Shown: positions 24,098 through 48,735 of the stretch, piece by piece
Layout of the letters: every line of letters begins with the position of its first letter
Numbering within the stretch: position 1 is the stretch's first letter
Assembly: GCA_028710405.1 (NCBI GenBank)
Contig: JAQTUD010000002.1
Span: 1-48,735 of the forward strand
Direction: 5' to 3'
Source of the DNA: Candidatus Omnitrophota bacterium
GTDB taxonomy: Bacteria; Omnitrophota; Gorgyraeia; Gygaellales; Profunditerraquicolaceae
Length of the DNA: 48,735 bases
The notes under the pieces: generated by a model
What the model saw: the letters and a program-made list of their open reading frames with translations, nothing else
Databases searched by the model: none
What the model was told of the DNA's origin: nothing
Translations under genes and position numbers: made by a program

Positions 24098-24154
24098 TAA
24101 AAAAGCCGTATAAATAAGCTTAGAAAATGCTTATAATATACGGCTTTTTTATTT
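24098..24154. terminator. Bidirectional intrinsic terminator between tRNA-Leu and the convergent response regulator gene
   Basis: AAAAAGCCGTATA ... TATACGGCTTTTTT with inner ATAAGC/GCTTAT. Confidence 0.85.
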
Positions 24155-27776: not shown

Positions 27777-27886
27777 TGCCTGGCATCCCTTTCTTATGAA
27801 AAATAGTATATACTGCCGTAAGGGCGGGGTCAATAAAATTATTGACCTTATAATCTCTTTATATTAGAATAACAACAATAAATTAC

Positions 27887-29386: not shown

Positions 29387-29387
29387 C

Positions 29388-30302
29388 ATGACGAATTTTC
29401 CGCAGATGCCACAGATGAAGAAGCAGCGCATCATCCTTATAAGCGGGATAGCCCTGATCGTGGTCGCCCTATTCGCGCTAAAAATATATGTTGACCAGAT
29501 CCGCACAGAGGCTGATATAGAGGCAAAAGCAAAATCGCAGAAATATCAGGCTAGCCAGGTTATGGTGTTAATAGCCAAGAGAGATATAGATAAGGGTGTG
29601 GCTATTGACATTGAAGATCTGCAAACAGAGAATATGCCCAGCCAATTTGTTCAGCCGCAGGCGGTTACTTCTTTTGACAGGATCTCCGGAATGATTACGC
29701 TGGCCCCTATTTCCAAAGGAGAACAAATTACCTTAAGTAAACTGGCATATCAGCGTGCCGGCAACCTTGCATCCATTACTCCCGTCGGGAAAAGGGCAGT
29801 CAGTATTGCCGTAGATAATATTTCTTCTCTGAGCGGGATGATCAAAGGCGGAGATTACGTGGATGTCATCGGGATGATACCCGTTTCTATGCAGACCCCG
29901 GATGGCAAGACGGTAACTCAGATTAAAGTAGCGCCTTTATTCCAAAATATCCTGGTTTTGGCAGTAGGCCAGGACATGGGGATGCCCGTTAAGGAAGAGT
30001 CACGGTATAAGAAACAGGAGAGCACAAAAGAAGCCTCCCCTCTTATCACCTTGGCGCTATCCCCGCAGGAAGCCAGCCTTATTACTTTTGTTCAAGAGCA
30101 GAGCAAGATCAGGCTGGTATTGCGTTCTCCGACCGATGCCAAGATAGAGTCGGTCCAGCCGGCCAGCTGGGATACATTATCCCAATATATTATGCCTGGG
30201 CCGCCGGCGGCGGGAGAAGCAGGGGTCAAGCCGCAGGAGGAAGAAGGGGAATACGTAGAGATATACAGGGGTCTAAATAAAGAGAAAGTCCCTCTGCGCT
30301 AA
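29388..30302 (+). CDS. cpaB: Flp pilus assembly protein CpaB/RcpC-like (SAF domain)
   Basis: N-terminal TM; VMVLIAKRDIDKGVAIDIEDLQTENMPSQFV; GKRAVSIAVDNISSLSGMIKGGDYVDVIG. Confidence 0.9.
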   Translation: MTNFPQMPQMKKQRIILISGIALIVVALFALKIYVDQIRTEADIEAKAKSQKYQASQVMVLIAKRDIDKGVAIDIEDLQTENMPSQFVQPQAVTSFDRISGMITLAPISKGEQITLSKLAYQRAGNLASITPVGKRAVSIAVDNISSLSGMIKGGDYVDVIGMIPVSMQTPDGKTVTQIKVAPLFQNILVLAVGQDMGMPVKEESRYKKQESTKEASPLITLALSPQEASLITFVQEQSKIRLVLRSPTDAKIESVQPASWDTLSQYIMPGPPAAGEAGVKPQEEEGEYVEIYRGLNKEKVPLR

Positions 30303-30335: not shown

Positions 30336-32003
30336 ATGAAAAGATCTATTCTTTTGACGGCATTATTTTTGGCGGCGTTAAACTTGGCGACGGTCTCCGG
30401 AGATAGTATCTACGACACGGTCACAGAGGATGCGGAAGAGATAAAATTATACCTAGGGGGGCCAAAGGTCATCCCTGTGAGCAATCCGACCCGTATCGCG
30501 GTAAGCAATCCTAATATAATGGATGTGACTAATGTGACAAGAAGCGAAGTAACTCTTAGCCCCAAAGCCGTCGGGAACACTACCCTGTTATTTTGGGATA
30601 GTTATGGTGAGCAAACCTTTAGGATTAAAGTCCTCACCGAGAATATGCTGGAGATAAAAGCCCGCATAGATAAGTTATTGGCCAGCCTGGATTTTCCGGA
30701 AGTTTACACCCGCGCTCAGGAAGACGAAGGTAAAGTTATGCTTCTGGGTAGGGTTAAGACCCCGCAGGATAGAGAGCGCATTACCCTGGCCTTGGGAGCG
30801 TTGAAAGAAAAGGCCGTTGATCTCATTGAAGTCAAAGAAGAAGAGACATTGATTGAAATAGATGCCAATGTCATGGAGATAAGCAAGGATTCCACCACCC
30901 GCCTGGGATTTGGCTTACCGGAAAAAGTTAATATACTTGAAGTCGGTTCTCCGGGTATACCTGCTTCCGGTTCGGTCTCCGTTACGACCGGGACTACCCC
31001 CAGCACTTCTTTTGCTACTACAAATACGGGTTCACGTTGGGATGATCTCTTCAGGATATTCCGTGTCAGCCGCGATGCCTTTACGGCTTCCATAGACGCT
31101 TTGGTGGTAGACGGGAAAGCAAAAATTCTCTCCCGTCCGCGCCTGGCCTGTCAGAGTGGCAAAGAAGCACAATTAATGGTGGGAGGGGAGAAACCCACTT
31201 TTTCTACTTTTACCGGGGAGACGAGTTCGGCTGTAGAAATAGAATATAAAGAATATGGCATAAAGGTAAAGGTGCGTCCTACCGTGATGAAAGATGATCG
31301 GATAAAATTGGGGTTGAATATAGAAGTAAGCGAGGTAGGTGAGGCCGAGACCATCGGTACGACTACTTCAGTAACTGCCAAGGCCTACCCGGTGACAAAA
31401 CGTAATATTTCCACAGAACTCTTTATTAATAATGAAGAAACCGTAGCCATAGGCGGCCTGATTAAACAAAGCTCTTCGGAAGAGATCCGCAAGGTTCCTT
31501 TCTTAGGAGATATTCCGGTAGTCGGCCTACTATTTAGGAATAAAACGGCCACTAAGGGTGGCGGGAGCGGTAACAGGGGCGATACGGAATTATTTATTAC
31601 CCTTACCCCCAGCATCATCGCCCGCGATAACCCTCGTCTTCCTGTGGCAGAGCAGGTCATAACGCAACCGCAGGCCAGGCCGGCAGCAATAGCGGTGCCC
31701 GAGATAGGCGTAAACCCTATAAAAGATTATGCTTCCATAATCCAGCAACGTATTATGAATAACCTGGAGTATCCATCCCTTGCCAAAAAAGCGGGTTTTC
31801 AGGGAATAGTAAAATTGAGCCTTCAGTTTTCTCACGTAGGCGCACTTCTAGGGTCCGCAATCGGAGAATCATCCGGGTATAAAATACTTGATGATAACGC
31901 CCTAAACGCGGCCAGAAGTATCGCCTCTTATCCGCCTTTCCCCGTCTCCATAGAGCAGAATGAAATATGGATAGAAGTGCCCATAGCTTATCGCCTGGAT
32001 TAA
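30336..32003 (+). CDS. cpaC: CpaC/RcpA-type secretin with C-terminal TonB-like domain
   Basis: Pilus N-domain (LGGPKVIPVSNPTRIAVSNPNIMDV), secretin core (VDGKAKILSRPRLACQSGKEAQLMVGGEKP), C-terminal IQQRIMNNLEYPSLAKKAGFQGIVKLSLQF...SSGYKILDDNALNAARS...IEVPIAYRLD. Confidence 0.9.
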   Translation: MKRSILLTALFLAALNLATVSGDSIYDTVTEDAEEIKLYLGGPKVIPVSNPTRIAVSNPNIMDVTNVTRSEVTLSPKAVGNTTLLFWDSYGEQTFRIKVLTENMLEIKARIDKLLASLDFPEVYTRAQEDEGKVMLLGRVKTPQDRERITLALGALKEKAVDLIEVKEEETLIEIDANVMEISKDSTTRLGFGLPEKVNILEVGSPGIPASGSVSVTTGTTPSTSFATTNTGSRWDDLFRIFRVSRDAFTASIDALVVDGKAKILSRPRLACQSGKEAQLMVGGEKPTFSTFTGETSSAVEIEYKEYGIKVKVRPTVMKDDRIKLGLNIEVSEVGEAETIGTTTSVTAKAYPVTKRNISTELFINNEETVAIGGLIKQSSSEEIRKVPFLGDIPVVGLLFRNKTATKGGGSGNRGDTELFITLTPSIIARDNPRLPVAEQVITQPQARPAAIAVPEIGVNPIKDYASIIQQRIMNNLEYPSLAKKAGFQGIVKLSLQFSHVGALLGSAIGESSGYKILDDNALNAARSIASYPPFPVSIEQNEIWIEVPIAYRLD

Positions 32004-32006
32004 AAT

Positions 32007-34166
32007 ATGTCTAAGAGGATAGTATTTTTTAGCACAAAAGGCGGAGTAGGTAAAACTCTGATTGCCGCCAATCTGGCTGTTGATTTGGCCAAGAAAGAAG
32101 AGAAGCGCGTTTGTCTGGTTGATCTGGATACGCAGGCTGTGGGCGATATGGCGCGCTTGCTTAATCTAAAGCCAAAAAAATCAATGGCGGATTTGATTTA
32201 TCTGCTGAAGAAATATCCGCAACAACTCGACAAGAACGACTTTTTAGTAAACAACCCATCTTTAGGCGCTGATTTCCTGGAAGGAATCAATAAACCCCAA
32301 CAGTCTCCTCATCTTGACCCGGAAAAAATAAAAGATGTCTTCGCCTTGCTAGATAAGTCTTATGACTATCTTGTTATTGATGCCGGCAAGAGTTTTAGCG
32401 ATATCCTGATAAAGGTCATAAATGAGGCCAACCTTATACTTTTAGTGGTAACGCCGGATATATTGTCTATATACCAAACGGAATGGATCTTGGACGTATT
32501 ACAGAATTTACATATCCCATTGAGCATGATCAGGGTGGTGCTTAACAGGGCTGAATCTGTCTCAGGTATCAGCTGGCAGGAGGTCAGGGTAAGCCTTCCG
32601 GTCGATATTATAGCCAGGATCCCATCCGAAGGCAAAACCGTGGGTGACGCCCTTAATCGCAACGTACCCTTTGTATTAGAAAACCCCAGGGCAAGGATTT
32701 CTATAGCCCTGAATAATTTTGCTCATGAACTAGCCACCAACGACCAGTTATTCCTTGGCCAGGTCAGTGCTATAGAAGATCTCAAGTTAAAGGAAATACC
32801 GGTAGAAAAAACAGGCCAGACCTGGAAGAAGGAAGGCCTGGATGAAGAATTGGCTGAGCCGGAGCCGGCGGAGAAAACAGACGAGATCATCCTGCTTAAA
32901 AGCAGGATCCATAATCGTCTTATTGATGAATTAAACCTCAAGCGACTGGATTTAAAGGCATTCACAGACTCAAAAAAGACTAAGGATTTAAGGGATAAAG
33001 CGGAAAGAATGGTCACTAATTTCCTGGCCGAGGAAGCAGGGAGTTTTATCTCTGCTTCCGGGATCCGTAATAAATTGGTAAAAGAAATCCTGGATGAGGC
33101 GCTTGGTTTAGGCCCCTTAGAAGATCTCCTGGCCGACCCCGAAATTACCGATATTATGGTAAATAATAAAGACGAGGTCTTTGTAGAGAAACGCGGTAAG
33201 ATAGAATTAACCAGCAAGAAATTCATCTCTAATTCCCAGGTCAAGACGATCATTGAACGTATCATCGCCCCTATCGGCAGGAGGATAGATGAGTCTGTGC
33301 CGATGGTAGACGCGCGCTTAGCCGATGGTTCGCGCGTCAATGCCATTATCCCGCCTCTGGCCCTGACCGGACCGACGCTGACCATTAGAAAATTCCGTAA
33401 AGAGAGGTTCAAGACGGAAGAGTTGATCAGCATGGGGACTACCAATCAGGCGGTAGTTGATTTTATAAAGGCATGCGTATTATGCAGAAAGAATATAATC
33501 GTCTCCGGAGGCACCGGCAGCGGTAAGACGACAATTTTGAATATCCTTTCCGCATTCATCCCGGATAATGAACGTATTATTACCCTTGAAGATGCCGCGG
33601 AGTTAAAGTTAAGCCAAAGCCACTGGTTGAGATTGGAATCTCGGCCTCCTAATATTGAAGGCAGAGGCGCGGTCACTATCAGGGATCTCTTTAGAAATAC
33701 TTTGCGTATGCGGCCGGATAGAATTATTATCGGAGAGTGCCGTGGCGCTGAAACCCTGGATATGCTTCAGGCGATGAATACAGGCCACGATGGCTCTATG
33801 ACCACTATTCACGCCAACTCTACTCACGATGTCCTCTCCAGGCTTGATTCCATGATCCTTATGTCAGGGGTAGAATTGCCTGTAAGGGCCATACGTGAGA
33901 TGGTCGCCTCTGCCCTTGATATCATCGTCCATACCGCCAGATTGTCCGACGGCACCCGTAAGATAATCCAGGTGAGCGAATTAACAGGGATGAAAGACGA
34001 GACCCATATCGGGCTGGAAGATATCTTTGTCTTCAATCAAACAGGCATGGGCCCGGACCATAAGGTATTGGGGGACTTTCGGGCTACCGGCTATGTGCCT
34101 TCATTTGTTAATGAAATAAAGATAAAGGGCATAGCGCTTCCTGAAAACGTCTTTAAGTCTGCTTAA
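32007..34166 (+). CDS. Fused CpaE/TadZ (MinD/ParA-like) and CpaF/TadA secretion ATPase
   Basis: N-terminus FFSTKGGVGKTLIAANLAVDLAK; C-terminus PLEDLLADPEITDIMVNNKDEVFVEKRGKIE, SGGTGSGKTTILNILS, RMRPDRIIIGECRGAETLDMLQAMNTGHDGSMTTIHAN, in one 719-aa frame. Confidence 0.93.
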   Translation: MSKRIVFFSTKGGVGKTLIAANLAVDLAKKEEKRVCLVDLDTQAVGDMARLLNLKPKKSMADLIYLLKKYPQQLDKNDFLVNNPSLGADFLEGINKPQQSPHLDPEKIKDVFALLDKSYDYLVIDAGKSFSDILIKVINEANLILLVVTPDILSIYQTEWILDVLQNLHIPLSMIRVVLNRAESVSGISWQEVRVSLPVDIIARIPSEGKTVGDALNRNVPFVLENPRARISIALNNFAHELATNDQLFLGQVSAIEDLKLKEIPVEKTGQTWKKEGLDEELAEPEPAEKTDEIILLKSRIHNRLIDELNLKRLDLKAFTDSKKTKDLRDKAERMVTNFLAEEAGSFISASGIRNKLVKEILDEALGLGPLEDLLADPEITDIMVNNKDEVFVEKRGKIELTSKKFISNSQVKTIIERIIAPIGRRIDESVPMVDARLADGSRVNAIIPPLALTGPTLTIRKFRKERFKTEELISMGTTNQAVVDFIKACVLCRKNIIVSGGTGSGKTTILNILSAFIPDNERIITLEDAAELKLSQSHWLRLESRPPNIEGRGAVTIRDLFRNTLRMRPDRIIIGECRGAETLDMLQAMNTGHDGSMTTIHANSTHDVLSRLDSMILMSGVELPVRAIREMVASALDIIVHTARLSDGTRKIIQVSELTGMKDETHIGLEDIFVFNQTGMGPDHKVLGDFRATGYVPSFVNEIKIKGIALPENVFKSA

Positions 34167-34270: not shown

Positions 34271-34612
34271 ATGCGGCTGATCAATAAAACCAAGAATACG
34301 GTTCTGGCCACAGAAGTTAAGATCGCCGGCACTATTTTCACCAGGCTTAAAGGATTATTAGGTAAAAAAGAACTGCCAAAAGGTGAAGCGCTGGTAATAA
34401 AATCTTGCAATTCTATACACACCTTCTTCATGCGTTTTCCCATAGATGTGCTTTTCGTAGATAAAGGAAATAGAGTGGTAGAAGTAATTTCTTCCCTGCC
34501 TACTTTTAGGATCTCCGCCATATATTTTAAGGCCTCTTTTGCTATTGAGCTACCTTCCGGAACTATTACTCCTGCTTCTGTTTCTAAAGGCGACATCCTC
34601 CTGATAGAATAA
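34271..34612 (+). CDS. DUF192 family protein
   Basis: IFTRLKGLLGKKELPKGEALVIKSCNSIHTFFMRFPIDVLFVDKGNRVV. Confidence 0.88.
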   Translation: MRLINKTKNTVLATEVKIAGTIFTRLKGLLGKKELPKGEALVIKSCNSIHTFFMRFPIDVLFVDKGNRVVEVISSLPTFRISAIYFKASFAIELPSGTITPASVSKGDILLIE

Positions 34613-34632
34613 CCCAGATTAAAAACATAATA

Positions 34633-34697
34633 TAAATGTCCAATCTGAAAAGCTTGACATAGAAGATAGGATATGTTATATTTTAAATGTCCAATCT
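34633..34697 (+). promoter_or_regulatory. Promoter bracketed by a 14-bp direct repeat
   Basis: TTGACA (34654-34659), 17 bp, TATATT (34677-34682); TAAATGTCCAATCT at 34633-34646 and 34684-34697. Confidence 0.8.
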
Positions 34698-34708
34698 AAA
34701 GGTAGAAT

Positions 34709-36241
34709 ATGGGTATTATCCATAAATTAAAGCCAGAAATCAAAGATTTTATATTAGAGCAGAAAAAGACTAATTCCAGGATTAGTTGCCGCAAGCTTTC
34801 CGGTTTACTTCAGAAAAAATATCAGATTAAACTCTCCAAATCCAGCATTAATGCCATATTTAAAAACACAGGCCTGAGTATGCCTGTAGGCAGGAGAAAG
34901 AGGCTTAGCAGTAGCAAGCCGGTCAAAGAAACGCTATTACAGAGCCCTTTGCCAGCAACTCCGGAAGCGCCAAGCCAAGAGAGATCCTCTGGTATTATAA
35001 TCCTGAAAGCAGTGGATTATTTATTAGGAGGTAGCCAGAGATTCAGCGAAATAATCCAGAGAAAAATAGGCACTGACCAGAAAGATATTCTATCCCAGAT
35101 AGAGCGGATTATTTACGGGGCGTTATATATGTCCAAAGAGGAAGAAACAAAGAGCAGTTTATCTTATCTTAATGAATTTCAATATGTTACAGAAATAAAA
35201 TCTGATATGGCTTTACAATTCTCCAACGTGTTCCGTGAGACACGTAACATAAAAGTGGATTTATCAGAGAATGAGGTTTTATATTTAGATGCCCGATTAC
35301 ATACTATTTGGTCTACGCCATATACCCCATATGATTTTGATGTAACTACTTCTAATATAAGTAGTTATATACATAAGCATCTCCAGGAGAATGTTTTTTT
35401 ATTGGGTATGGCGCCGGTTAATGATATTCCGGGAAAGGATTTTTTTGATTTTATTAATGGCCTTTATGGCCAGGAGAAGAGTATATTAAAATTTACCCTT
35501 TGTGGTAATAATTTTGAGGAACTGGAGGTTATTACTCCACCCGTAGATCAAAGATGCTATTGTGTATTTGGGGCCTGGCCCTGGCAGTTTAGGGAATACC
35601 GTAAAGTAAATAAAATCGGAGAATTTAATCCTTTTTATTTTTCCGGCCTGAAGAAGTATTATTATATTGCGCAGGTAGAGATTGAGTTATTGCAACCGAT
35701 TGAACAACAAAGAGTTACATTAATAGGTGTAGCCTTGAAGACAGCCCTGGCGGAGAAGGCGCGCCTGCTTATCCTGACCAATCTTCCTGCCGAATCAGTT
35801 TCTTATGAGAAACTAGCGGATGATTATCTTAACCGTTGGCCTAACCTTGAAGAGGGGTTTGAAGATTTTAACCGTAAAATCGAACTTTTTACCTACACTG
35901 CCGGTCTCAAAAGCTCTTTTTTACCGCCCAAAATTAATCTTAATAAAGCCGTCTCCTGCGATGTCAAAGATCTCCTTGCTGTCTACTCCCATGCCCTGGA
36001 TCTATACCTAAAGTGTTATTTTGCCCCGACACAACTCCAGAAAGATGATTCTCCGTCGATGAAAGAGTGTTTTTACGGCTTAGAAGCCATCCCGAAGAAG
36101 GAGAAAAATAATACTTTTATTACCTTTTCCCCTCCTGCCGGATATCCTTTCCCGCAGGAACTGGCTTATCTGTGCCGTAGGCTCAATGAAAGAGAGCTCT
36201 TCCTACCGGATAAGACCCGCCTGCGCTTCTGTGTTATTTAG
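34709..36241 (+). CDS. HTH protein with transposase-like architecture (possibly domesticated)
   Basis: N-terminal HTH-like RISCRKLSGLLQKKYQIKLSKSSINAIFKNTGLSMPVGRRKR; DARLHTIW...; LADDYLNRWPNLEEGFEDF resembling the C-terminal part of DDE transposases. Confidence 0.5.
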   Translation: MGIIHKLKPEIKDFILEQKKTNSRISCRKLSGLLQKKYQIKLSKSSINAIFKNTGLSMPVGRRKRLSSSKPVKETLLQSPLPATPEAPSQERSSGIIILKAVDYLLGGSQRFSEIIQRKIGTDQKDILSQIERIIYGALYMSKEEETKSSLSYLNEFQYVTEIKSDMALQFSNVFRETRNIKVDLSENEVLYLDARLHTIWSTPYTPYDFDVTTSNISSYIHKHLQENVFLLGMAPVNDIPGKDFFDFINGLYGQEKSILKFTLCGNNFEELEVITPPVDQRCYCVFGAWPWQFREYRKVNKIGEFNPFYFSGLKKYYYIAQVEIELLQPIEQQRVTLIGVALKTALAEKARLLILTNLPAESVSYEKLADDYLNRWPNLEEGFEDFNRKIELFTYTAGLKSSFLPPKINLNKAVSCDVKDLLAVYSHALDLYLKCYFAPTQLQKDDSPSMKECFYGLEAIPKKEKNNTFITFSPPAGYPFPQELAYLCRRLNERELFLPDKTRLRFCVI

Positions 36242-36271: not shown

Positions 36272-36300
36272 TTGACGCCACTATATATAAATGTTATATT
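36272..36300 (+). promoter_or_regulatory. Sigma70-type promoter upstream of the pilin riboswitch candidate
   Basis: TTGACG (36272-36277), 17 bp, TATATT (36295-36300). Confidence 0.75.
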
Positions 36301-36306
36301 TTAATT

Positions 36307-36450
36307 GCGATTAGAAGGCGGCATCGAAAGAGCAAGGCGGGGATGGAGGTCTCTGCTGCGCAAAGCCACGGGATGCGCTCGCCAGAACATTTTAGGTTTT
36401 TTAATTTTTGCTTCCATGGGTCTGGAGCGAGGACATTAGCCGGGTTACCG
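36307..36450 (+). ncRNA. GEMM-like (c-di-GMP/cGAMP) riboswitch candidate with atypical 5' half
   Basis: GCGCAAAGCCACGGG and GGACATTAGCCGGGTTACCGAAAG motifs, CGAAAG tetraloop-like element upstream, P2-like stem CTCGCCAGA/TCTGGAGCGAG; precedes Flp pilin genes. Confidence 0.6.
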
Positions 36451-36488
36451 AAAGCCGACAGGATTTTTGGTAATCCGGCTTTTTGTTA
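36438..36488 (+). terminator. Intrinsic terminator overlapping the 3' part of the riboswitch candidate
   Basis: AGCCGGGTTACC / GGTAATCCGGCT 12-bp stem (one G-U) followed by TTTTTGTT. Confidence 0.85.
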
Positions 36489-36537: not shown

Positions 36538-36711
36538 ATGTTACGCAAAAAGGGCCAGTCAACACTGGAATACGTGTTAGTTCTAACCGCGATCATCGCG
36601 GCAGTAATTGTGGCGGCAACTAAGTTTGTCAAACCTAGGGTGGAAGGTTCGTTGGACCATGTTTCCCAGGAGATGGAGGACCAGGTAGGGAGAATTCAAT
36701 TTGGAAAGTAA
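36538..36711 (+). CDS. Flp-type pilin 1
   Basis: KGQSTLEYVLVLTAIIAAVIVAATKFV; strong SD AGAGGAGGTGA. Confidence 0.85.
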   Translation: MLRKKGQSTLEYVLVLTAIIAAVIVAATKFVKPRVEGSLDHVSQEMEDQVGRIQFGK

Positions 36712-36724
36712 GGAGGTGATTTTG

Positions 36725-37066
36725 ATGTTAGGCAGATTAGGCAAAAAGGCGCAGAGTACTGCTGAATACGCAATCATTATCGCTTTGGTTATAGCCGCGG
36801 TAGTGGCGATGCAGGTTTATGTGAGAAGGGGCATACAGGGTAGAGTCAGAGATGTGGTTGATCATACCGGTGCCGGTGGCGATGTTGGCGGAGAGAATCT
36901 TTCTTTTAGCAGCGGCCAATATGAGCCTTATTATAATCAAACAACGGGTTCAACCTCCCAGAAATCACAGAATACGGAGAGCGTAGACGGCACATCCAGG
37001 AGTTCTACTACTTCTGTTGATGCTACCAGGGAACAGACAACGGGTTGGTTTGGTTCTGAAGAATAA
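36725..37066 (+). CDS. Flp-like pilin 2 with Ser/Thr-rich tail
   Basis: KAQSTAEYAIIIALVIAAVVAMQVYVRRGIQGRV; SD AAGGAGGTGAT. Confidence 0.8.
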   Translation: MLGRLGKKAQSTAEYAIIIALVIAAVVAMQVYVRRGIQGRVRDVVDHTGAGGDVGGENLSFSSGQYEPYYNQTTGSTSQKSQNTESVDGTSRSSTTSVDATREQTTGWFGSEE

Positions 37067-37091
37067 GTTTTTTAAAAGGAGGTGAAAAAGA

Positions 37092-37403
37092 ATGTTTATA
37101 CGTCTGAACAAAAAGGGGCAAGGCACGCTTGAATACGGAGTAATTATTGCCGTAGTAGTCGCGGGGTTAATTTTTATGCAGACCTATGTAAAGCAGGGAG
37201 TACAGGGGAAACTAAAGCAATCCGCAGATGAAATAGGAGAGCAGTATTCGGAGCATTCGACGGGAACAATAACCACGATCAGCAACGTAAATACCGAAGA
37301 GAATACGACCGGCGGGGATAGGCCTGTTACTACTAGTTCCAGCACTCAACATCAGACCCGCAGCTCTACCGAGAATATAACCGTCTCTGATCAGGAGGAG
37401 TAA
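37092..37403 (+). CDS. Flp-like pilin 3 with Ser/Thr-rich tail
   Basis: KGQGTLEYGVIIAVVVAGLIFMQTYVKQGVQGKL; SD AAAGGAGGTGA. Confidence 0.8.
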   Translation: MFIRLNKKGQGTLEYGVIIAVVVAGLIFMQTYVKQGVQGKLKQSADEIGEQYSEHSTGTITTISNVNTEENTTGGDRPVTTSSSTQHQTRSSTENITVSDQEE

Positions 37404-37437
37404 GCCAGGTAAGTATGCATCGACAGGAGGATAAAAA

Positions 37438-38283
37438 ATGATTTTGATTATTGCTCTTTTGTTTTCAGCCTCTTTGCTGCTTTTGGGGATGGCCCTGGCA
37501 CCTTCTTTAGTCGATAAAGCAAGGCAGTGGCAGAAGAAGAAAGAGGTGTTCTTGGAGAAGGAGCTCGACAAGACTTTTTACAGCAAGAGCCCGAAAGAGC
37601 TCTTAAGGCTTTACTTCATTCTGCCTCCTGTCTTCGGCGTCGTTGTTTTCCTTCTCCTGAATTCCGCGATTTTAGCGGCGGCAGGGGCAGTCTTGGGGTT
37701 ATTTGTCCCTACCATAATCCTGCGGATAAGGGACAGCCGGCACAAGCAGAAATTTAATACCCAGCTTTTAGACGCTATCATGATCTTGGCCAGTTGCCTT
37801 AAGGGAGGGCTCTCTTTATTGCAGGCCCTGGAAATATTAATAGAAGAGATCCCCGCACCGATGAGCCAGGAGATGGGCCTGGTAGTCAGGGAGAACAAGA
37901 TGGGGGTGCCTTTAGAGGAGAGCCTGGTGCATTTAAATGAAAGGATAGGATCTGAAGAGCTGGGGTTAGTAATAAACTCTATACTGGTTGCGCGCGAGAC
38001 CGGGGGCGACCTGACCAAGGTATTAAGCCGGCTTACCACAACTATCCGCGATAACCGTAAATTAACGGATAGCATTAAGACGCTGACTATGCAGGGAAAG
38101 ATGCAGGGCATTATCATGTCTTTCCTGCCTTTTGGTTTTATCTGGTGGGTGGTGACATTCAACCGCGAGCATTTTGATATCATGCTTAATACCGAAAAAG
38201 GGAGGATGCTCCTTTTCGTGGCGGTGGTCTTGCAGATTATAGGTATGTTTTTGATTAAAAAATTTAGTACCATAAAATTGTAA
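37438..38283 (+). CDS. tadB: Tad secretion system membrane protein TadB
   Basis: T2SSF domain: LLDAIMILASCLKGGLSLLQALEILIEEIPAPMSQEM; follows the pilins. Confidence 0.9.
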   Translation: MILIIALLFSASLLLLGMALAPSLVDKARQWQKKKEVFLEKELDKTFYSKSPKELLRLYFILPPVFGVVVFLLLNSAILAAAGAVLGLFVPTIILRIRDSRHKQKFNTQLLDAIMILASCLKGGLSLLQALEILIEEIPAPMSQEMGLVVRENKMGVPLEESLVHLNERIGSEELGLVINSILVARETGGDLTKVLSRLTTTIRDNRKLTDSIKTLTMQGKMQGIIMSFLPFGFIWWVVTFNREHFDIMLNTEKGRMLLFVAVVLQIIGMFLIKKFSTIKL

Positions 38284-38293
38284 GGAGAAGATA

Positions 38294-39154
38294 ATGGTCC
38301 TTATTTATCTGCTTATAATAATAGGAATAATGGCTGTCCTGGCGGGGCTTTTGGGTATGCCTTCATTCTCGAGCCCGAGAATGAATTTTACTCCGAAACA
38401 GAATCAAAGCCGCGCGCCCAAAGCACTCTTGAGCCAGGCGCTTGGCCTAAGTTTTCCTTTCAGCAAACTTTTCCTGGAGAACACAAAATTATCCGCGAAA
38501 ATGAAAAATCGGCTTGATTCCGCGCATGTCGGGCTCACCCCCGCGGCATTTTTTAACCTGAAGTTGATACTGGCGGTAGTGTTAAACATCGCGGCTTTTT
38601 TTACCCTGCAGAAGATAGATCCCGTCGTTATTATCTTCTGCCTTTTCTTTGGGTATATGGTTCCGGATATCTGGCTGAACAGGAAGGTCCAGGAACGCAA
38701 GGAAAAAATCGTAAAAACAATGCCTGAAACAGTAGACCTTTTGGGCCTCTGCGTAGAGGCGGGACTGGATTTTGCTTCGGCAGTGAAGTGGGTCATAGAA
38801 AAAACTCCGCACAACCCTATGGTGGAAGAGCTGGCTTTTGTCCTGGAAGAGATCCGCTGGGGAAAACCTCGTACCCAGGCATTAAAAGATATGTCCACAA
38901 GGTTACAGGTTTCGGAGATAACTTCTTTTGTGCAGACTTTGGTGTTGGCAGAGCGCATGGGGACCCCGGTTTCTGAGGCATTCGCCATACTTTCTGAAGA
39001 TACGCGCCTGCAGCGTTACCACCGTGGAGAGAGGATCGCGATGAAGGCGCCCTTAAAAATCCTCATTCCCCTGATATTCTTTATCCTGCCGGTGATCGCT
39101 ATTGTTATCGGCGGGCCGATATTCTTGCAGTTTATGGATAAGAAGATGTTTTAA
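38294..39154 (+). CDS. tadC: Tad secretion system membrane protein TadC
   Basis: T2SSF domain: MPETVDLLGLCVEAGLDFASAVKWVIEKTPHNPMVEELAFVLEEIRWGKPR. Confidence 0.9.
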   Translation: MVLIYLLIIIGIMAVLAGLLGMPSFSSPRMNFTPKQNQSRAPKALLSQALGLSFPFSKLFLENTKLSAKMKNRLDSAHVGLTPAAFFNLKLILAVVLNIAAFFTLQKIDPVVIIFCLFFGYMVPDIWLNRKVQERKEKIVKTMPETVDLLGLCVEAGLDFASAVKWVIEKTPHNPMVEELAFVLEEIRWGKPRTQALKDMSTRLQVSEITSFVQTLVLAERMGTPVSEAFAILSEDTRLQRYHRGERIAMKAPLKILIPLIFFILPVIAIVIGGPIFLQFMDKKMF

Positions 39155-39171
39155 ATATGGCGGGCGATAAC

Positions 39172-39339
39172 ATGAAAAAAACATTTATGAGAGGACAGTC
39201 CATTGCGGAATATTTCATCGTTATGAGCGTGGTCCTGGCGGCAATACTGGCCCTGGGTTTTGTCGGCCGCATGCGCAATACTTTTGGTGAATATTTTACG
39301 GATGCCGCCAGCGTAATGACCAAAGAGACAGAGCCTTAA
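39172..39339 (+). CDS. Flp-like pilin 4
   Basis: RGQSIAEYFIVMSVVLAAILALGFVGRM. Confidence 0.75.
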   Translation: MKKTFMRGQSIAEYFIVMSVVLAAILALGFVGRMRNTFGEYFTDAASVMTKETEP

Positions 39340-39348
39340 GAGGGACAT

Positions 39349-39513
39349 ATGTTAAAATTCTTTTATAGCAAACGGGCGCAGAATTTCTTAGAGTATACGG
39401 TATTAATCGCCGTAGTCTCGGCGGCGTTATTGGCGATGAGCCAATATATCCAGCGGGCAGTAAACGCGCGCTTCAGACAAGTGCAGGTAGAATTGGATGA
39501 GTCCAAAAGGTAA
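39349..39513 (+). CDS. Flp-like pilin 5 (54 aa, not in supplied ORF track)
   Basis: MLKFFYSKRAQNFLEYTVLIAVVSAALLAMSQYIQRAVNARFRQVQVELDESKR. Confidence 0.78.
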   Translation: MLKFFYSKRAQNFLEYTVLIAVVSAALLAMSQYIQRAVNARFRQVQVELDESKR

Positions 39514-39530
39514 CTAAAGGAGCCCTCAAG

Positions 39531-39866
39531 ATGAGGCGTAGTAAAGCGCAGAATACTCTGGAATATTGTATGCTTATAGGTGTAATCGCCTTGGCCTTGC
39601 TTGCGATGCAGGTTTATCTCAAGAGAGGAGCGCAGGGCCGGATAAGGGGCTATGCCGATGAATTAAGCGAAGGGTTCGGTTATTCTCCGGGCGCTTCATC
39701 CGCGGATAACGTAATTACCCGTAACATAACAGAAAACTCAAAGTCTTATTCAGAGGGGAAGGTTGGGGAGATAAAAAAGAGCGTTACTGATTCCAGCACT
39801 ACGATCCATCAGAATATCCAGCGTCGGGAAAATACGCTTCCTTTCGGCGCCGAACCGAAAAGGTGA
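39531..39866 (+). CDS. Flp-like pilin 6
   Basis: KAQNTLEYCMLIGVIALALLAMQVYLKRGAQGRIRGYADEL; SD AAAGGAG. Confidence 0.8.
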   Translation: MRRSKAQNTLEYCMLIGVIALALLAMQVYLKRGAQGRIRGYADELSEGFGYSPGASSADNVITRNITENSKSYSEGKVGEIKKSVTDSSTTIHQNIQRRENTLPFGAEPKR

Positions 39867-40585
39867 GAGATATGAATAAGCGTGCAAACACAATAATGGA
39901 GTGGGTTATCCTTATCGGATTAGTCTCGTTAGGATTTATCACGATGAATATCTATGTCAAGCGCGGCCTGCAGGGAAAGATCGCCGATATGAGCGATTAC
40001 TTTATCGGCGAAGAGCACGCCGCGGATGCCAATCCTACGGCTATTGTTACCAGCAAAACCGTAAGCAGCTCCAGCGGTACCACTACATCCGATATGTCAT
40101 TTGGGGGAGGGATGCAATTGGCGCTTTTAGAAGACAGGGATATAACCGCAACCAGCAGGGTGGTGGATGAATCAAAGGAGCAAAAACCAGGAAAATTTGT
40201 TCCGCAGGAATCAGGTAATATTGATGTGCCTGTGCCGCCGGATCCCCAGCAGATAGCCGCAGAAGCGGACCAGACTGAAGAGGTCGTTGATTTTAAGACA
40301 CAGAGCAAGGAAAACCAAGTAAAGATCAGGCTTAAGGAAGCCGCTCAGTTAGAAAAGAAAGCTGATGAGTTAGATGCGAATGCTGCGAAATTAAGACAAC
40401 AGGCAGATGATATAGATTGTCCACGTTACCGTAGTGGATCATGTAAAAGCGGGAAAAAGAAAATGCGGCTGGAGGCAAATGAGATGGTCGCTGAAGCCAA
40501 GGAGATGAGAAAAGAAGCCGAAGCCAAAAGAACGGAAGCCGCACAGATCCAGGCCGAGATCGACCAGTTAAAGGGTGACCAATGA
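39863..40585 (+). CDS. Flp-like pilin 7 with long coiled-coil C-terminus
   Basis: RANTIMEWVILIGLVSLGFITMNIYVKRGLQGKIADMSDY plus Ala/Glu/Lys heptads and CPRYRSGSC; likely start ATG 39872. Confidence 0.75.
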   Translation: MRDMNKRANTIMEWVILIGLVSLGFITMNIYVKRGLQGKIADMSDYFIGEEHAADANPTAIVTSKTVSSSSGTTTSDMSFGGGMQLALLEDRDITATSRVVDESKEQKPGKFVPQESGNIDVPVPPDPQQIAAEADQTEEVVDFKTQSKENQVKIRLKEAAQLEKKADELDANAAKLRQQADDIDCPRYRSGSCKSGKKKMRLEANEMVAEAKEMRKEAEAKRTEAAQIQAEIDQLKGDQ

Positions 40586-41364
40586 AATATTCCCATAATA
40601 AAAAAGCCCAAGCAGTGGTGGAGTTAGCAATATTCGGCAGCATTATCTTAGTTGTCTTCGGCATCCTGCTTTCTTATGTGCAAAGGCTTAATGACCAGCA
40701 ATATGTGCAGATGGAGGCTTTCCGCCGCGCTTTAGAAAAGGCTTGCAATACCACAGCCGGCGCTTCAGTGCAATATACGTTGATTACCGACAGGCACCAT
40801 GCTGATCTAAACGGCGGCTTGGGAAAGGGAAGCCCTACTACGGTCAGTGCATCTACCAATGTCTTCTGGGCAGTCCCCAAAGCCGCAGAGGATGCCAAGG
40901 CGAACAGCTTAATAATCTTTAGAATTAACGAAGACGAGAAGTCGCGTTCTTACGATGAATTTGTGCCCGTCGAACATGACGGTAATGTAAAAGAAGGCGA
41001 TCCTGCAGAAATAGAGTGGTCATTTAGGACCGAAGAGATGATTTCCAGCTCGGATGCCAAATTTGACGAAACAGTGCGTAAGCAGGAATCACCTTCAGGT
41101 ATAACCAATACAAGGGTCTCTAAATTATCCGAAAGCAAAAAATATAAGATCCCCTATACTGTGCGGGTAGAAGATGACGACGATGATGACGAAAATGATG
41201 TGGAAGCCAAGCCGGGCGGCACTTTTTGGGAAGGGCCGGATTCTCCTGGCGGAGAATTAGTGCAGCGTCTTTACCGCGATACAGACGGCCAGTATAAATA
41301 TAGCAGCAAAGTGCCGGAAGGCACGGTAGTTGAGAGGACAAGGCAATGGCAAACCGGATTTTAA
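40582..41364 (+). CDS. TadE-like pseudopilin
   Basis: KAQAVVELAIFGSIILVVFGILLSYVQRLNDQQYVQMEAFRRAL; 260 aa; ATGA overlap with upstream stop. Confidence 0.7.
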   Translation: MKYSHNKKAQAVVELAIFGSIILVVFGILLSYVQRLNDQQYVQMEAFRRALEKACNTTAGASVQYTLITDRHHADLNGGLGKGSPTTVSASTNVFWAVPKAAEDAKANSLIIFRINEDEKSRSYDEFVPVEHDGNVKEGDPAEIEWSFRTEEMISSSDAKFDETVRKQESPSGITNTRVSKLSESKKYKIPYTVRVEDDDDDDENDVEAKPGGTFWEGPDSPGGELVQRLYRDTDGQYKYSSKVPEGTVVERTRQWQTGF

Positions 41365-41612
41365 ATTTAAAAGGGCAGGCAACGCTGGAAACGGCGATCG
41401 TTTTTTTCCTGGTCGTGGCATTATTCGGCGGGATAATCAAGATCTGGCTCTGGGAGAACCGCCAGATAGTGGAACGCCAGCTTCGTTATAATGCCACAAG
41501 GGTGAGTGCCGGCACAGGAAGCGATACCTATAAATTGCAGTGGCCGATTTATACGCCTCCGGACCTTAAGGAAGAAGATGTTATCATAAATAATTCATCT
41601 TTTAGGAGATAA
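41346..41612 (+). CDS. TadE-like pseudopilin, short
   Basis: KGQATLETAIVFFLVVALFGGIIKIWLWENRQIVERQLRYNATR. Confidence 0.65.
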   Translation: MANRILNLKGQATLETAIVFFLVVALFGGIIKIWLWENRQIVERQLRYNATRVSAGTGSDTYKLQWPIYTPPDLKEEDVIINNSSFRR

Positions 41613-41615
41613 AGG

Positions 41616-43292
41616 ATGTTTACCTATTTCCATGAGAATAAATTTTTCGGTAACCAGAAAGGGCAACTGACTGCTTTATTTATAGTAATAATTGTGGTCC
41701 TGGTAATAATGGCGATGGTCACGGTAAGCCTGACCAAAGTTTCTTTCATGAAGACCGAATCCAGTAATGCCACTGATTCTGCTGCCCTGGCGACCGGAGC
41801 AGTCATGGCGAATATTTTTAATTCCATAGTCCAGGCAAATGACGATATGGAAGCGAAATACCAGCAGTTCTTGATCACTGTTTCGGCGGAGTTCGCCGCG
41901 GCGCAATTAGCATTGTTGTTGGGCGAAACCCAGGTAGAGGCCAGCTTAAATACTTCTCAGCAGACCAAGAAGAGTTGCAGCGACCAAAACTGTCCAGATA
42001 CCGTTGAATCAATGGTCGCCGCCGGCCAAGAATCATTAGCCAAAAACTATATAATGGAGACCTTTTTATCATTGGTAGAGTCAATAATTGTTACTATTAC
42101 AGCCTACTCCATCGGCACTTTTTACTATTATAAATCCATCAGAAAAATGGCCGAGGAAGGGCGCAATAGCGCCATAAAAATGGGGCATCAATTCGCGTTT
42201 ATGAATAGCGGCATAGGCGGAAAATTAAAGGAGGGCAAGCCGCCGGCTGAGGTAACCGATCCGGATGCCAGGCGTAATTACCGCGATGAATTTAGTAAAT
42301 TTATGGATATTTTTAGCAATGAAGATCTCGTGCCGGCAAATGAATATACATATTCGTGGATAGACGGTTCTGGCGGGAAACATTATATAAAATCAAAGGT
42401 GGAAACAGAGAAGCTGGATACTTTTAAATTAAAGATTACTGCTATGCCCTGGGAGGCGGAAATCGCATTATTGATGCTGGGGACAGGAGTCGGCATTCTA
42501 TTTTTATACAGTTTAGGCGGCGTCTTTTACGGTGTTGGTTGTATCTGTTATGCCTTGAGCAGCGCATTTAGCTGGTTTCCGCCATTAAAGGCGGCTTTTG
42601 AGGTTTGTCAATATGTCGCCTGCCTGGCAGGAAATCTGTCAATAATATCAGGAAATTTCGTGAACAAGTATGTTGAATATCAATTAAACGGAGTAAGAGC
42701 CGCTTTATTGATCGCGTCACTGGGGGTATTCCCCGGTTTTACGATCAGGGATGATTCAGGGGATGTTATGTGGGCAACGATCTGTTGGCTGGAAGATATC
42801 GTCCACGACCGTAAAGTCAGGGTGGATACCTGGGCATATCACGAGGGGACAGATATGGGATTATGGCAGGCAAAATATCCCCAGACGCATAGTTACAGTA
42901 TTATAGATTTCACAAATAACTGCAAGATCTATCCCCCGGATGATGAGAACAAAAAACATGACCCATCTATTGTGGCGACTGATGTCATTGGCATACCGCA
43001 AACCGACCCCGATCCGCATAAGGATTGTCCTTATGCCACCGAGGAATGCGCGAATATTGAGAAAGAGATCAGCGATTCGCTGGCGGCTGCTGATGAATAT
43101 GATGCGCAGGCAAAGGAATTGGAGAAGACAATTACGCTTTATCAAGAGCAGGGTATGAGCCAGGAGCACATAGCCGAAATGTCTAAGCTGGCCCAGGATG
43201 CCCGCGGCCGCGCCGAAGAAGCTCGTAAGCAGGTTGGCGATCTTGAAACCAAGAAAGAAGATCTAAAGGAAGAATATGCGCAGTGTTTTTAA
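41616..43292 (+). CDS. TadG-like protein
   Basis: KGQLTALFIVIIVVLVIMAMVTVSLTKVSFMKTESSNATDSAALATGAVMA; additional TM helices and a C-terminal coiled coil. Confidence 0.7.
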   Translation: MFTYFHENKFFGNQKGQLTALFIVIIVVLVIMAMVTVSLTKVSFMKTESSNATDSAALATGAVMANIFNSIVQANDDMEAKYQQFLITVSAEFAAAQLALLLGETQVEASLNTSQQTKKSCSDQNCPDTVESMVAAGQESLAKNYIMETFLSLVESIIVTITAYSIGTFYYYKSIRKMAEEGRNSAIKMGHQFAFMNSGIGGKLKEGKPPAEVTDPDARRNYRDEFSKFMDIFSNEDLVPANEYTYSWIDGSGGKHYIKSKVETEKLDTFKLKITAMPWEAEIALLMLGTGVGILFLYSLGGVFYGVGCICYALSSAFSWFPPLKAAFEVCQYVACLAGNLSIISGNFVNKYVEYQLNGVRAALLIASLGVFPGFTIRDDSGDVMWATICWLEDIVHDRKVRVDTWAYHEGTDMGLWQAKYPQTHSYSIIDFTNNCKIYPPDDENKKHDPSIVATDVIGIPQTDPDPHKDCPYATEECANIEKEISDSLAAADEYDAQAKELEKTITLYQEQGMSQEHIAEMSKLAQDARGRAEEARKQVGDLETKKEDLKEEYAQCF

Positions 43293-43305
43293 CTTGGAGG
43301 TAAAT

Positions 43306-44217
43306 ATGTCTCTAAAAAATAATATTTTATTATTGATTTTTACAGGTGTCTTTCTATTGAGTACGGCAAATTTATCTGCTGCTTGGTGGGAGCAACAGGG
43401 TATTCCTGTCCCTTCGGGAACGACCAAGGTAAAAGAAGAAACCCGCAAAGTAGTCGGTATAGATTACGAAATGATCCACTATGAATCAGATCAGTCAGCA
43501 GAACGAATCAAAGATTTCTATCGCAAGGAGCTGGCCGGGTCAGGTTGGACATTATTGGACCCGTATGCCAACCTGGCGGCGAATTCTGGCGAAGGAATGC
43601 CTAAAATGGAGAGCGGTTATCTGGATAAAGCAATAGGAAAGAACCTTATGTTTGAAAACGGTGAAGATATACTTTCATTTAGCTTCTTGCCGGAAGGTTT
43701 TGCCCGCGACGAAAAGACCCATTTTACCGTAACAAAAGGGAAAAAGCCTCAAGCAGGCTCCAATATCAGTGGTAATAAAATACAGTTACAGGTCCCCGAA
43801 TTAGTCGCAAAGCCCAAAAAAGATGTTTATCCGGTATATCCGGGGTCATCCCTGGTAAACCTTTCAGAAAATGAGCGTACCTTAAATGCTACTTATTTTA
43901 CGCGCGATGATATTGAAGACGCGGTGATCTTTTTTAAAAAAGAGATGTCCAGATATGGCTGGTATCTTAGCGATGAAAGGCCGGTTTCAAAGGCCAGCAA
44001 GGTGGATTCTGCTCAGGCGAAAGCCAGTTGCCCTTCGTGCGAGCAGCAGTTACCAGGGCTATCTTTAGAGGTATGGTCCGCGGAGTTGATTTTTACCAAT
44101 GACAGGCAGGATACCTGCCGGCTGACTCTGGCCCAGGCCGTACCTCCGGCAGACGAACAATACGCGTCTCTTGGTATGACTACTATAACGGTGGATTATG
44201 CGGAAAAAACCAGGTAA
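43306..44217 (+). CDS. Secreted protein with two copies of a short alpha/beta domain
   Basis: Signal peptide; IPVPSGTTKV...IKDFYRKELAGSGWTLLD and YPVYPGSSLVN...AVIFFKKEMSRYGWYLSD. Confidence 0.65.
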   Translation: MSLKNNILLLIFTGVFLLSTANLSAAWWEQQGIPVPSGTTKVKEETRKVVGIDYEMIHYESDQSAERIKDFYRKELAGSGWTLLDPYANLAANSGEGMPKMESGYLDKAIGKNLMFENGEDILSFSFLPEGFARDEKTHFTVTKGKKPQAGSNISGNKIQLQVPELVAKPKKDVYPVYPGSSLVNLSENERTLNATYFTRDDIEDAVIFFKKEMSRYGWYLSDERPVSKASKVDSAQAKASCPSCEQQLPGLSLEVWSAELIFTNDRQDTCRLTLAQAVPPADEQYASLGMTTITVDYAEKTR

Positions 44218-44404
44218 GGCACAGGGTTTTCTGGAATACGCGGTATTCATAATGGTAATAGCCGCGGCGCTTTTTGCGATGCGGATATATTTTGCCCGCG
44301 CGATACAGGAAAAATACCGCCAGGCCGGGGATGTATTCGGCGAAGGAGAGCAGTATCAGCCGGGCGTAACGCAGACGGCAGAAACAAGCAATACGCATCA
44401 ATAG
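44198..44404 (+). CDS. Flp-like pilin 8
   Basis: KAQGFLEYAVFIMVIAAALFAMRIYFARAIQEKYRQAGDVFGEGEQ; overlaps upstream stop. Confidence 0.8.
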   Translation: MRKKPGKAQGFLEYAVFIMVIAAALFAMRIYFARAIQEKYRQAGDVFGEGEQYQPGVTQTAETSNTHQ

Positions 44405-47400: not shown

Positions 47401-48541
47401 TTTAAATACCATCAAAGAAGGGCTAAGCAGAGCAGGCGCAGCTTCAGACGGGCTTAAGGTGGAATTTGCTCCCAACGGCAAATTGGTATTAAGCCAATAC
47501 AATCAAGACTTTGGGAAATATGTCGTGGCAGGAGAATATATCCCGATACCTGATTATGAATGGTCCTGGGGTAGAGACGACGGAAGCGCTGAGAAGATTT
47601 CAGGAAAGAGCCTTAGCCAGATGCTCTCTCGGCAGGAAGCCAAAGATACGCTTAGCTATCTAACCGATGGCATAGTCGGGCAGGGTGTTACCAGCGTCAA
47701 GCCGGATATTAACGGCAATTTCCGTCTCGCCAGCGATGTAGCGTTGTCTGATAATCCTGACAATAAAGGGTATTATACGCTGCAGAGGGCTCCTTACCAT
47801 AAATCTCCTTTAATGCCTAACACAATCTACGCCGGGGTAGATAGAAATAAAAACACTATCTTTGTAGATGATCCAGAGTTTGAATGGAATAATCGGCAAA
47901 TAATTGCATTCACTATTAAGAATGGAGAGATTGGCATCAAGGATAAGTCTACTATTTTTGCCAAAAAGTATGAGTTTATTCCAACGGCGGGTGTGGTGCC
48001 TTCAATTGTAGGAAGTTTTGGGCAGAGTGCATTTGAATTTGGGCTGCAGACCATAGCAATGGGACTTTATTATACGCCCGGCGGAAAAATGAGCACGCTG
48101 GCCGTAGTCAATTATACGGATAAATTACGGCAGCTGGCTTCATCAGGCGCCTACAAAGGTATGTTCCAGACAATGGGTGAATATATGACTTCCACAGGTA
48201 GTTCATCTAATTTCGGAGTAGCAAAAGATCTGGTAACGCGTAATATTCTGACTGCTATGGCAGATATTCCGTATGTCGGGAGCTCCCTCGGATTGGCGCC
48301 TTATGTGCCTGTAAGCGGGTATAAAGGAATGCCTTTTAGCGTAGTCGCCAATGTCGGCGGTGGATATGGAGAAATGAGGACCAGGTATTATCCTTACTGG
48401 CCTTATGACCGTATTAATATCGTGCCGCAAGATACGTTCTGGAGAAATATAAAAATAGGCCAAACGCTCAAAACTACCGGACAAACCATCTTGCCTCCTG
48501 TTGAGCAGCCGGACACAAAATTAGAGAATAATAATGACTAA
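44417..48541 (+). CDS. 1374-aa secreted repeat-containing protein of unknown function
   Basis: Signal peptide (IGLILVFSLAIPQYALAG); Gly/Ala-rich hydrophobic N-terminal region; at least five degenerate ~40-aa repeats. Confidence 0.85.
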   Translation: MNKVKEKLLKIGAKAIGLILVFSLAIPQYALAGRTHVGGGEDMKIDWSDIGDQLALTIGVSFGSAWLSSSFNSAWQASNTANQAGQTVNIVKDVTGPLSGIRQFIAQPLECISVGLDATAKLVTNPTYIIQGATDIGKMGKLASMAATGFATWTAATQVAGAVGAYGQYHDWNPRKIYTVSSLMVGGTAGLINPNAYLSQNNGFQPIQGALVGGFGAWANAATVAAIDGSKINKNQDPGVGAQVAGYAAGLYATELGRTAFDPNTYFNKMQEVHSYKAPDEIYKLQYDEATGTSTFRNGAGEQKTFEELYGMGGTINTDGDMVITHDPALVRYEFPGTADRQTYRQGQNQTWVDESDPNKVLSRQEWEALQRNPGLKITTKDGIATLTRGNAIPVTSEAEFQKIMGNQISDKTRFDPRAGAQTDIYEQAYHSNGGYINKEGEVLSSGEFYDRFAGKPDIQVTPGPDGSMAVTRAVSPESSWRSSSALIRRPDTIIAPTQDGNYQLTLFSGSKDPIVVDEVSGRSIYFARNIKPGFGVNEGRSQWIPAEMFSPAYRPSASTVFWRLGAAPFINTANLWPQILTKYMVLMASKKFEEHNKDNWAEKWKPLIEASIQSTAGPLLDSSATIFGWRIDLDRQLGYYPAMEAYREQLFGQALAKRDWKQLANRPKDIYKQVDLGGVPGYIDSKGNILSTQDVEMLNRLNPGKFSVEANGDLQVFKDPIPDSLTRNLAPDKKIEFAPLKRTPDGEITDYMDSKGKVYSSEEVADYTYAFPNLYFDKDGSVYSLHSPDDAFYKALQNRGLTSEKEQVKILSDAIARKTRMETASEWSAYKNIGGSKWEAFGLAAGNTLRTELPIGLIATAIEIGIDDSTSSDKEDFSHALTASLRNIAASSVARGLVWGLYGDYLHSKQLSEIGKAGIPNEIFPYNLPEDEIMAARVQGNLAQPGPRVTIGEMGFYDRDGKPLTDAQMTELQERIDKAYAAYGAQAPDIRTTDLNTIKEGLSRAGAASDGLKVEFAPNGKLVLSQYNQDFGKYVVAGEYIPIPDYEWSWGRDDGSAEKISGKSLSQMLSRQEAKDTLSYLTDGIVGQGVTSVKPDINGNFRLASDVALSDNPDNKGYYTLQRAPYHKSPLMPNTIYAGVDRNKNTIFVDDPEFEWNNRQIIAFTIKNGEIGIKDKSTIFAKKYEFIPTAGVVPSIVGSFGQSAFEFGLQTIAMGLYYTPGGKMSTLAVVNYTDKLRQLASSGAYKGMFQTMGEYMTSTGSSSNFGVAKDLVTRNILTAMADIPYVGSSLGLAPYVPVSGYKGMPFSVVANVGGGYGEMRTRYYPYWPYDRINIVPQDTFWRNIKIGQTLKTTGQTILPPVEQPDTKLENNND

Positions 48542-48735
48542 AAAGAAAGTCATTTTTTTTAACTACTTTTTAAGCCGGTTTATAAATGTTTTAATTGTTT
48601 TTTTTCTTTCAATTCCCCCCGCCCTCGCCTCGTTTGACTCCGGCTCCGGTGATGAATTCGGCTACGGCGAGAGCAGCCCGGTCAATGTCGGTGCGCCCGT
48701 CAGCTTCACTCAAGGCACTTTTAACACCGGCACCT
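48534..48735 (+). CDS. Secreted protein, truncated by window edge
   Basis: ATG overlaps upstream TAA; MTKKKVIFFNYFLSRFINVLIVFFLSIPPALASFDSGSGDEFGYGESSPVNVGAPVSFTQGTFNTGT..., open to the right edge. Confidence 0.7.
   Translation, partial: MTKKKVIFFNYFLSRFINVLIVFFLSIPPALASFDSGSGDEFGYGESSPVNVGAPVSFTQGTFNTGT

Follow-up and report, generated by a model that had tools for sequence, protein, structure and literature searches.

The 48,735-nucleotide stretch of DNA analysed here (hereafter the window) corresponds to contig C36 of the draft genome of a Candidatus Omnitrophota bacterium (1.16 Mb in 123 contigs, 86.7% complete). Judged by its genes, the window plainly carries a Tad (type IVc) pilus operon, from which a surface filament is predicted. 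The operon includes eight genes for Flp-type pilins, tightly spaced (-20 to +34 nt) and preceded by a candidate cyclic di-GMP (c-di-GMP) riboswitch (Table 1).

The Tad locus and its eight pilin genes

A scan for a basic residue followed by [GA][QN]xxxE[YWF] and a hydrophobic stretch returned exactly eight open reading frames (ORFs) in the 48.7 kb, all on the + strand between 36529 and 44404, the number proposed by the first-pass annotation for Flp-like ORFs with a basic-[GA][QN]xxxE[YW] start. Chance occurrence of the motif is ruled out, with zero matches in 20 shuffles. A profile built from 40 related N-termini likewise gave eight matches genome-wide, all of them in the array (E 5.5e-21 to 3e-13), and found no further pilins elsewhere in the 86.7%-complete genome. 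The same profile returned 8, 8, 8 and 10-11 matches in four relatives, nearly all inside the Tad locus, and, in the complete genome of Candidatus Velamenicoccus archaeovorus LiM (hereafter LiM), ten in the Tad locus together with one weak outlier. The window genome is placed in the class of LiM, since a genome of the same class, G196, shares the LiM pilin coordinates exactly; the class is named Velamenicoccia in PMC10066038. Nearly all relatives that bear a name are Candidatus Omnitrophota.

The pilins show the G/A-cleaved leader, GxxxxEY motif and hydrophobic helix of Flp proteins, and the start at 36538 is plausible, with AGGAGG upstream of its ATG. The class C pilin passes the Class_IIIsignal model (24.0 bits, above cut-off), and a search of the PDB using the pilin profile gave no useful match. 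Measured against an all-helical Flp protein of 50-80 residues, classes A, D, E and H fit, whereas B, C, F and G are longer; a helix segment, MQxYxKRGxQG[RK], is common to B, C and F and partly kept in G and H.

Table 1. Features of the Tad locus and its surroundings in the window.
Feature	Coordinates	Strand	Evidence
Response regulator with GGDEF (diguanylate cyclase)	24149..25075	-	PF00072 4.8e-31, PF00990 1.1e-16
Histidine kinase	25080..26579	-	HisKA 2.6e-20, HATPase_c 4.8e-30
FIST-domain sensor	26586..27833	-	FIST 2.2e-39, FIST_C 1.3e-26
CpaB/RcpC	29364..30302	+	PF16976 4e-23
Secretin (RcpA/CpaC) with C-terminal TonB_C domain	30336..32003	+	PF00263 1.2e-39, PF03544 6.5e-14
TadZ (ParA-like)-TadA (CpaF) ATPase, single fused protein	32007..34166	+	CbiA/AAA_31 residues 3-185; T2SSE 366-645, E 7e-61
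DUF192 protein, conserved neighbour	34271..34612	+	PF02643 1.1e-16; synteny
Helix-turn-helix (HTH) protein, 510 residues, directly before array; possible regulator	34709..36241	+	weak HTH_32 0.0011; synteny
Promoter TTGACG-N17-TATATT, extended -10	36272..36300	+	pattern match
c-di-GMP-I riboswitch aptamer (candidate)	36322..36453	+	model R2 77.1 bits; RF03168 28.2 bits
Intrinsic terminator, 5' arm = aptamer 3' strand	36438..36484	+	minimum free energy -31.7 kcal/mol, z -7.6
Pilin class A (short)	36538..36711	+	motif scan, class profile, genome profile
Pilin class B (QYEPYY motif in tail)	36701..37066	+	motif scan, class profile, genome profile
Pilin class C	37092..37403	+	motif scan, class profile, genome profile
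TadB	37438..38283	+	T2SSF 3.9e-20
TadC	38294..39154	+	T2SSF 2.7e-17
Pilin class D (short)	39157..39339	+	motif scan, class profile, genome profile
Pilin class E (44 residues mature)	39349..39513	+	motif scan, class profile, genome profile
Pilin class F	39531..39866	+	motif scan, class profile, genome profile
Pilin class G (long charged tail)	39863..40585	+	motif scan, class profile, genome profile
TadF-like minor pilin	40582..41364	+	A|QAVVE site; beside TadE/TadG in relatives
TadE	41346..41612	+	PF07811 19.9 bits, just below cut-off 22.9
TadG	41616..43292	+	PF13400 28.3 bits, above cut-off 22.3
D313, exported two-repeat protein, conserved	43276..44217	+	orthologues in about 40 loci
Pilin class H	44198..44404	+	motif scan, class profile, genome profile
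BIG, large exported protein, 1374 residues	44417..48541	+	homologues at same place in 5 loci
Next gene start: signal peptide, then stretch shared with own giant; leaves contig	48534..48735	+	

The genome encodes TadA, TadB and TadC together with a secretin and CpaB, TadZ, TadE/F/G proteins and an A24 prepilin peptidase. The three further proteins that had been singled out for their pilin-like starts (40582, 41346 and 41616) fit TadF-, TadE- and TadG-like minor pilins, the first of them with no match in Pfam. As previously pointed out, the window holds no prepilin peptidase; the genome has one, on contig C61 (C61:345-734, E 1.7e-20), outside the Tad locus, and a system broken for want of this enzyme is thereby ruled out. 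The TadA family TIGR03819 is matched at 4.7e-100, under its curated cut-off. The TadZ-TadA fusion is kept in LiM and in relatives with the gene fully covered, and the fusion of secretin to TonB_C in relatives with the secretin covered, LiM included.

Age and order of the pilin classes

Of 384 Omnitrophota genomes, 171 belonging to the class gave one or more pilin matches. Six matches or more were found in 144 of them, with a maximum of 14 and a median of 9 for genomes with three or more, whereas the other classes of the phylum contribute 13 genomes with matches, one or two each. Twelve Tad loci of unrelated bacteria contain 0-3 Flp-like ORFs each by a relaxed motif scan, which bears out the contrast, drawn in the first-pass annotation, between eight genes here and one to a few in typical loci.

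The pilins were compared in a set of 378 sequences from 99 distinct loci. The N-terminal motif is kept in these relatives: Y6 in 366 of the 378 and E5 in all 378, the latter figure being built in, because E5 belonged to the search motif. For 370 pilins the nearest pilin belongs to another genome, and profiles seeded by the eight of the window place 361 in classes A-H. Class lengths are narrow (interquartile ranges of 44-45 residues for E, 94-103 for C and 104-115 for B). Likewise, gene order is nearly constant (A before B in 34/34, B before C in 35/35, D before E in 19/19, C before F in 20/20), E before A being the order that varies (16 to 7); tadBC lies between C and D in the group of the window and downstream of the array elsewhere. 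A tree of 362 tips requires 30 class changes, compared with 233 or more after shuffling, and just 4 of 104 sister pairs come from one genome. Because the sequences in the tree had also served to refine the class profiles, its figure is in part predetermined; this applies less to the figures for best hits, gene order and lengths. The tree and synteny comparisons recommended by the first-pass annotation thus returned distinct classes in near-constant order, and recent tandem duplication is ruled out by the tree and best-hit tests. Taken together, these sequence comparisons identify the eight pilins as ancient, distinct paralogue classes in near-fixed order across the bacterial class, and not as a recent expansion.

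One locus of the comparison (L138), from a record labelled Planctomycetales, bears a typical Omnitrophota array, and the label is probably wrong. A viral origin of the locus is ruled out, as its TadC has no relatives among viral contigs.

A c-di-GMP riboswitch and a linked giant gene

Of 19 loci, 16 have a promoter site matching that of the window ahead of their first pilin. Promoter-like sites are not enriched in the window over shuffles (12 vs 19.2), and the promoter call therefore leans on conserved position. Downstream of it, the aptamer is the sole match in the 48.7 kb to model R2 (E 3e-22), which draws on 18 relatives and leaves the window sequence out, an imperfect hold-out, since some of the 18 had been found with an earlier model, R1, that contained it. 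The aptamer does not reach the Rfam gathering score (RF03168, 28.2 bits vs 65.9); orthologous leaders from other genera (L038, L039, L068, L060 and L063) pass RF01051. The aptamer helices covary in relatives (0.561 vs 0.200 shuffled), and the riboswitch is present before 25 arrays, in 17 of which it overlaps a terminator. As the 3' strand of the aptamer doubles as a terminator arm, high c-di-GMP is expected to turn the array on; we infer this switch direction, with ligand binding predicted, from the leader sequences. Across the order, 119 of the 128 genomes contain c-di-GMP-I riboswitches, with as many as 12 in a single genome.

In LiM, a 39,686-codon ORF begins 244 nt after tadC; its product has been published with a length of 39,678 residues (PMC10066038). 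Long ORFs sharing one N-terminus come after the Tad genes in many relatives. This N-terminus consists of a hydrophobic segment and a Peptidase C39 domain (PF03412 in 17/17), the fold being supported by PDB matches to C39 proteases both in sequence and in fold searches (6mpz, E 7.6e-6). The catalytic Cys and His are kept in 28/28 sequences and the Asp in 24/28. By homology, then, the giant protein begins with a Peptidase C39 domain, and protease activity is predicted for it. The LiM giant is exceeded in length by a 57,756-codon open frame near position 22849 of G058:C2, which also has the C39 N-terminus.

The linkage of this giant gene to the Tad locus was followed across the order (128 genomes): tadC and a strong giant match (E<1e-20, a cut-off of our own choosing) occur together in 60, the giant without tadC in 2, tadC without the giant in 29, and neither in 37 (odds ratio 38, Fisher p 8e-12). 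The giant lies on the tadC contig in 44 genomes, and all 45 same-contig pairs run on one strand, with the giant 45 to 10,839 nt downstream. Many giant genes are, in addition, preceded by a c-di-GMP riboswitch of their own; the 21 spacings listed for these were chosen from same-contig cases and show spacing, not frequency. In the present genome the giant gene is found on contig C105, behind a riboswitch above gathering score. The last 99 nt of the window are identical to part of this gene and encode the same stretch, behind a signal peptide; the contig probably ended at this repeat, and the end of the window and C105 may well adjoin. The frame on C105 (L193) contains 33 X from N bases, near its end.

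Several neighbouring genes are conserved as well. The HTH gene precedes the array in most loci, often with 500-760 residues and a faint likeness to transposase HTH domains, and its promoter is flanked on both sides by a direct repeat, AAATGTCCAATCT(G/A)AA (34627-34700), a possible operator. D313 gave an AlphaFold2 model with a mean confidence score (pLDDT) of 83 and no match at E<=0.001 in a fold search against the PDB. BIG has no Pfam family above cut-off, and a fragment of the giant protein is ruled out for it, as BLASTP shows no similarity. Among the proteins encoded between 1 and 5 kb ahead of the Tad genes, the REC-GGDEF protein is a possible local source of c-di-GMP; to tie it, the FIST sensor and the histidine kinase to the array is speculation. 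A 6S RNA is found at 5618-5776 (59.7 bits).

A proposed mixed-composition pilus for cell contact

The observed gene content, orthology, pilin classes and their order, leader structure and giant-gene linkage can be joined in a single scheme. Binding of c-di-GMP to the leader riboswitch would block the overlapping terminator and let the Tad operon be transcribed, yielding eight non-redundant Flp-type pilins, the TadF/E/G set, the TadB/TadC platform and the exported accessory proteins. Short pilins, one or two of them (A or E), would most likely make up the shaft, with the longer-tailed B, C, F and G and TadFEG at the tip or at intervals, in a pilus of mixed composition. c-di-GMP would also switch on the giant surface protein with the C39 domain, whose gene in relatives lies just downstream, and pilus and giant coat protein would form a contact apparatus to attach to, and perhaps attack, other cells. 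We consider it fairly probable that the locus encodes such a riboswitch-controlled, mixed-composition Tad pilus which, with the giant protein, makes up a c-di-GMP-switched apparatus for cell contact. More tentatively, and with somewhat less than even confidence, we suggest that a Tad pilus of about eight classes and a giant C39 coat protein that can reach tens of thousands of residues act as one machine under separate c-di-GMP riboswitches, which grips and attacks cells.

Co-assembly of the classes in one pilus is favoured here, and contact with hosts or prey is suggested by analogy. LiM, which carries the corresponding Tad locus, reportedly preys on an archaeon (PMC13153191), and its Tad complex is expressed in co-culture (PMC10066038). 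In Myxococcus (PMC12075869), as in Bdellovibrio (PMC5430801), predation depends on several pilins. The present bacterium is tiny and uncultured, and probably host-dependent or predatory.

Several observations weigh against this scheme. Pfam Flp_Fap (PF04964) matches just two of the eight pilins, at 19.7 and 19.0 bits, below the cut-off of 32.2; since it accepts none above cut-off, the pilins are identified through their motif and position, through cross-genome profiles and through synteny. The overlap test found no overlapping terminator in 8 of the 25 array riboswitches, a subgroup of the close relatives (L036, L037 and L041 among them) returned no array riboswitch, and the LiM array leader scores 14 bits only, so that we claim no riboswitch there. 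Moreover, the giant gene of this genome lies off the window contig, and the organism is known from its genome sequence alone.

Among the alternatives, an ordinary Tad pilus for adhesion or biofilm, without a predation role and linked to the giant gene by shared regulation of surface attachment, is a minor possibility that deserves serious weight. c-di-GMP commonly favours attachment, as this reading would have it. On the other hand, the predator LiM expresses the Tad complex alongside prey, and the linked giant protein is up 3-fold in attached LiM cells (PMC10066038), both of which speak against it.

It is unlikely that only one or two of the eight pilins serve as filament subunits, the long-tailed ones being membrane-anchored or exported proteins with a class III signal: the tails of B, C, F and G do run 50-190 residues past the helix, and Myxococcus Flp proteins are described as 50-80 residues long (PMC12075869), but the shared helix segment and the conservation of Y6 and, with the reservation already made, of E5 favour pilins throughout. 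Quite unlikely, in turn, is a Tad machine devoted mainly to secreting the giant and BIG proteins, with the pilins as a short pseudopilus, a reading to which the constant downstream position of the giant genes and the exported neighbours lend support; the N-terminal hydrophobic segment of the giant could serve Sec, and no direct link of the giant to Tad export was found. Finally, alternative shaft subunits used singly, for antigenic or host-range variation, are very unlikely: despite divergent tails and a copy number that varies somewhat, up to 14, the genes form one compact same-strand run of ancient, ordered classes of constant length, and cassettes should cluster within genomes, as few sister pairs do. 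Thus, of the two outcomes that the first-pass annotation drew from the expansion, the heteropolymeric pilus is favoured, and a recent, variable set of alternative pilins is not.

Tad pili are usually pictured as a single small pilin repeated. A class of ultra-small, probably host-dependent bacteria with six to fourteen ordered pilin classes would make Tad composition and assembly order testable. Through their constant neighbourhood and the pairing of riboswitches, the giant proteins of these bacteria, mostly devoid of context until now, gain a likely partner machine and signal. What was a list of odd genes becomes one hypothesis, testable in the LiM enrichment culture.

Regarding known systems, the leader resembles c-di-GMP-I (GEMM-I) riboswitches (RF01051/RF03167/RF03168) in its conserved core and covarying helices, and differs from them in preceding a Tad pilin array and in its second stem-loop, which carries a long insertion. 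The locus shares CpaB, secretin, TadZ, TadA, TadB, TadC, TadE, TadG and GxxxxEY pilins with the Tad/Flp pili of Caulobacter, Aggregatibacter and Pseudomonas, from which it departs in its eight pilin classes, TadZ-TadA fusion, TonB_C domain on the secretin, off-locus peptidase, riboswitch control and, in relatives, the giant gene downstream. LiM and other Omnitrophota (PMC10066038) have the same class and locus, with the giant ORF on record. The available part of that source calls the giant ORFs of the class poorly conserved, whereas we find a conserved C39 domain at the N-terminus, and makes no mention of the pilin array, the riboswitches or the Tad-giant linkage; earlier giant-gene literature might note the linkage. 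In Bdellovibrio and like organisms, several non-interchangeable flp pilins are required for predation, from four to six genes partly off the Tad locus (PMC5430801), as compared with eight here, all inside. The Kil system of Myxococcus xanthus is likewise a predation-linked Tad pilus with many minor pilins (PMC12075869). Its diversity lies mainly in four tip sets of the TadE/F/G type (15 pilins, 3 of them Flp-type; PMC12075869), whereas in the present case the Flp-type pilins of a single locus, with one TadEFG set, are the diverse part.

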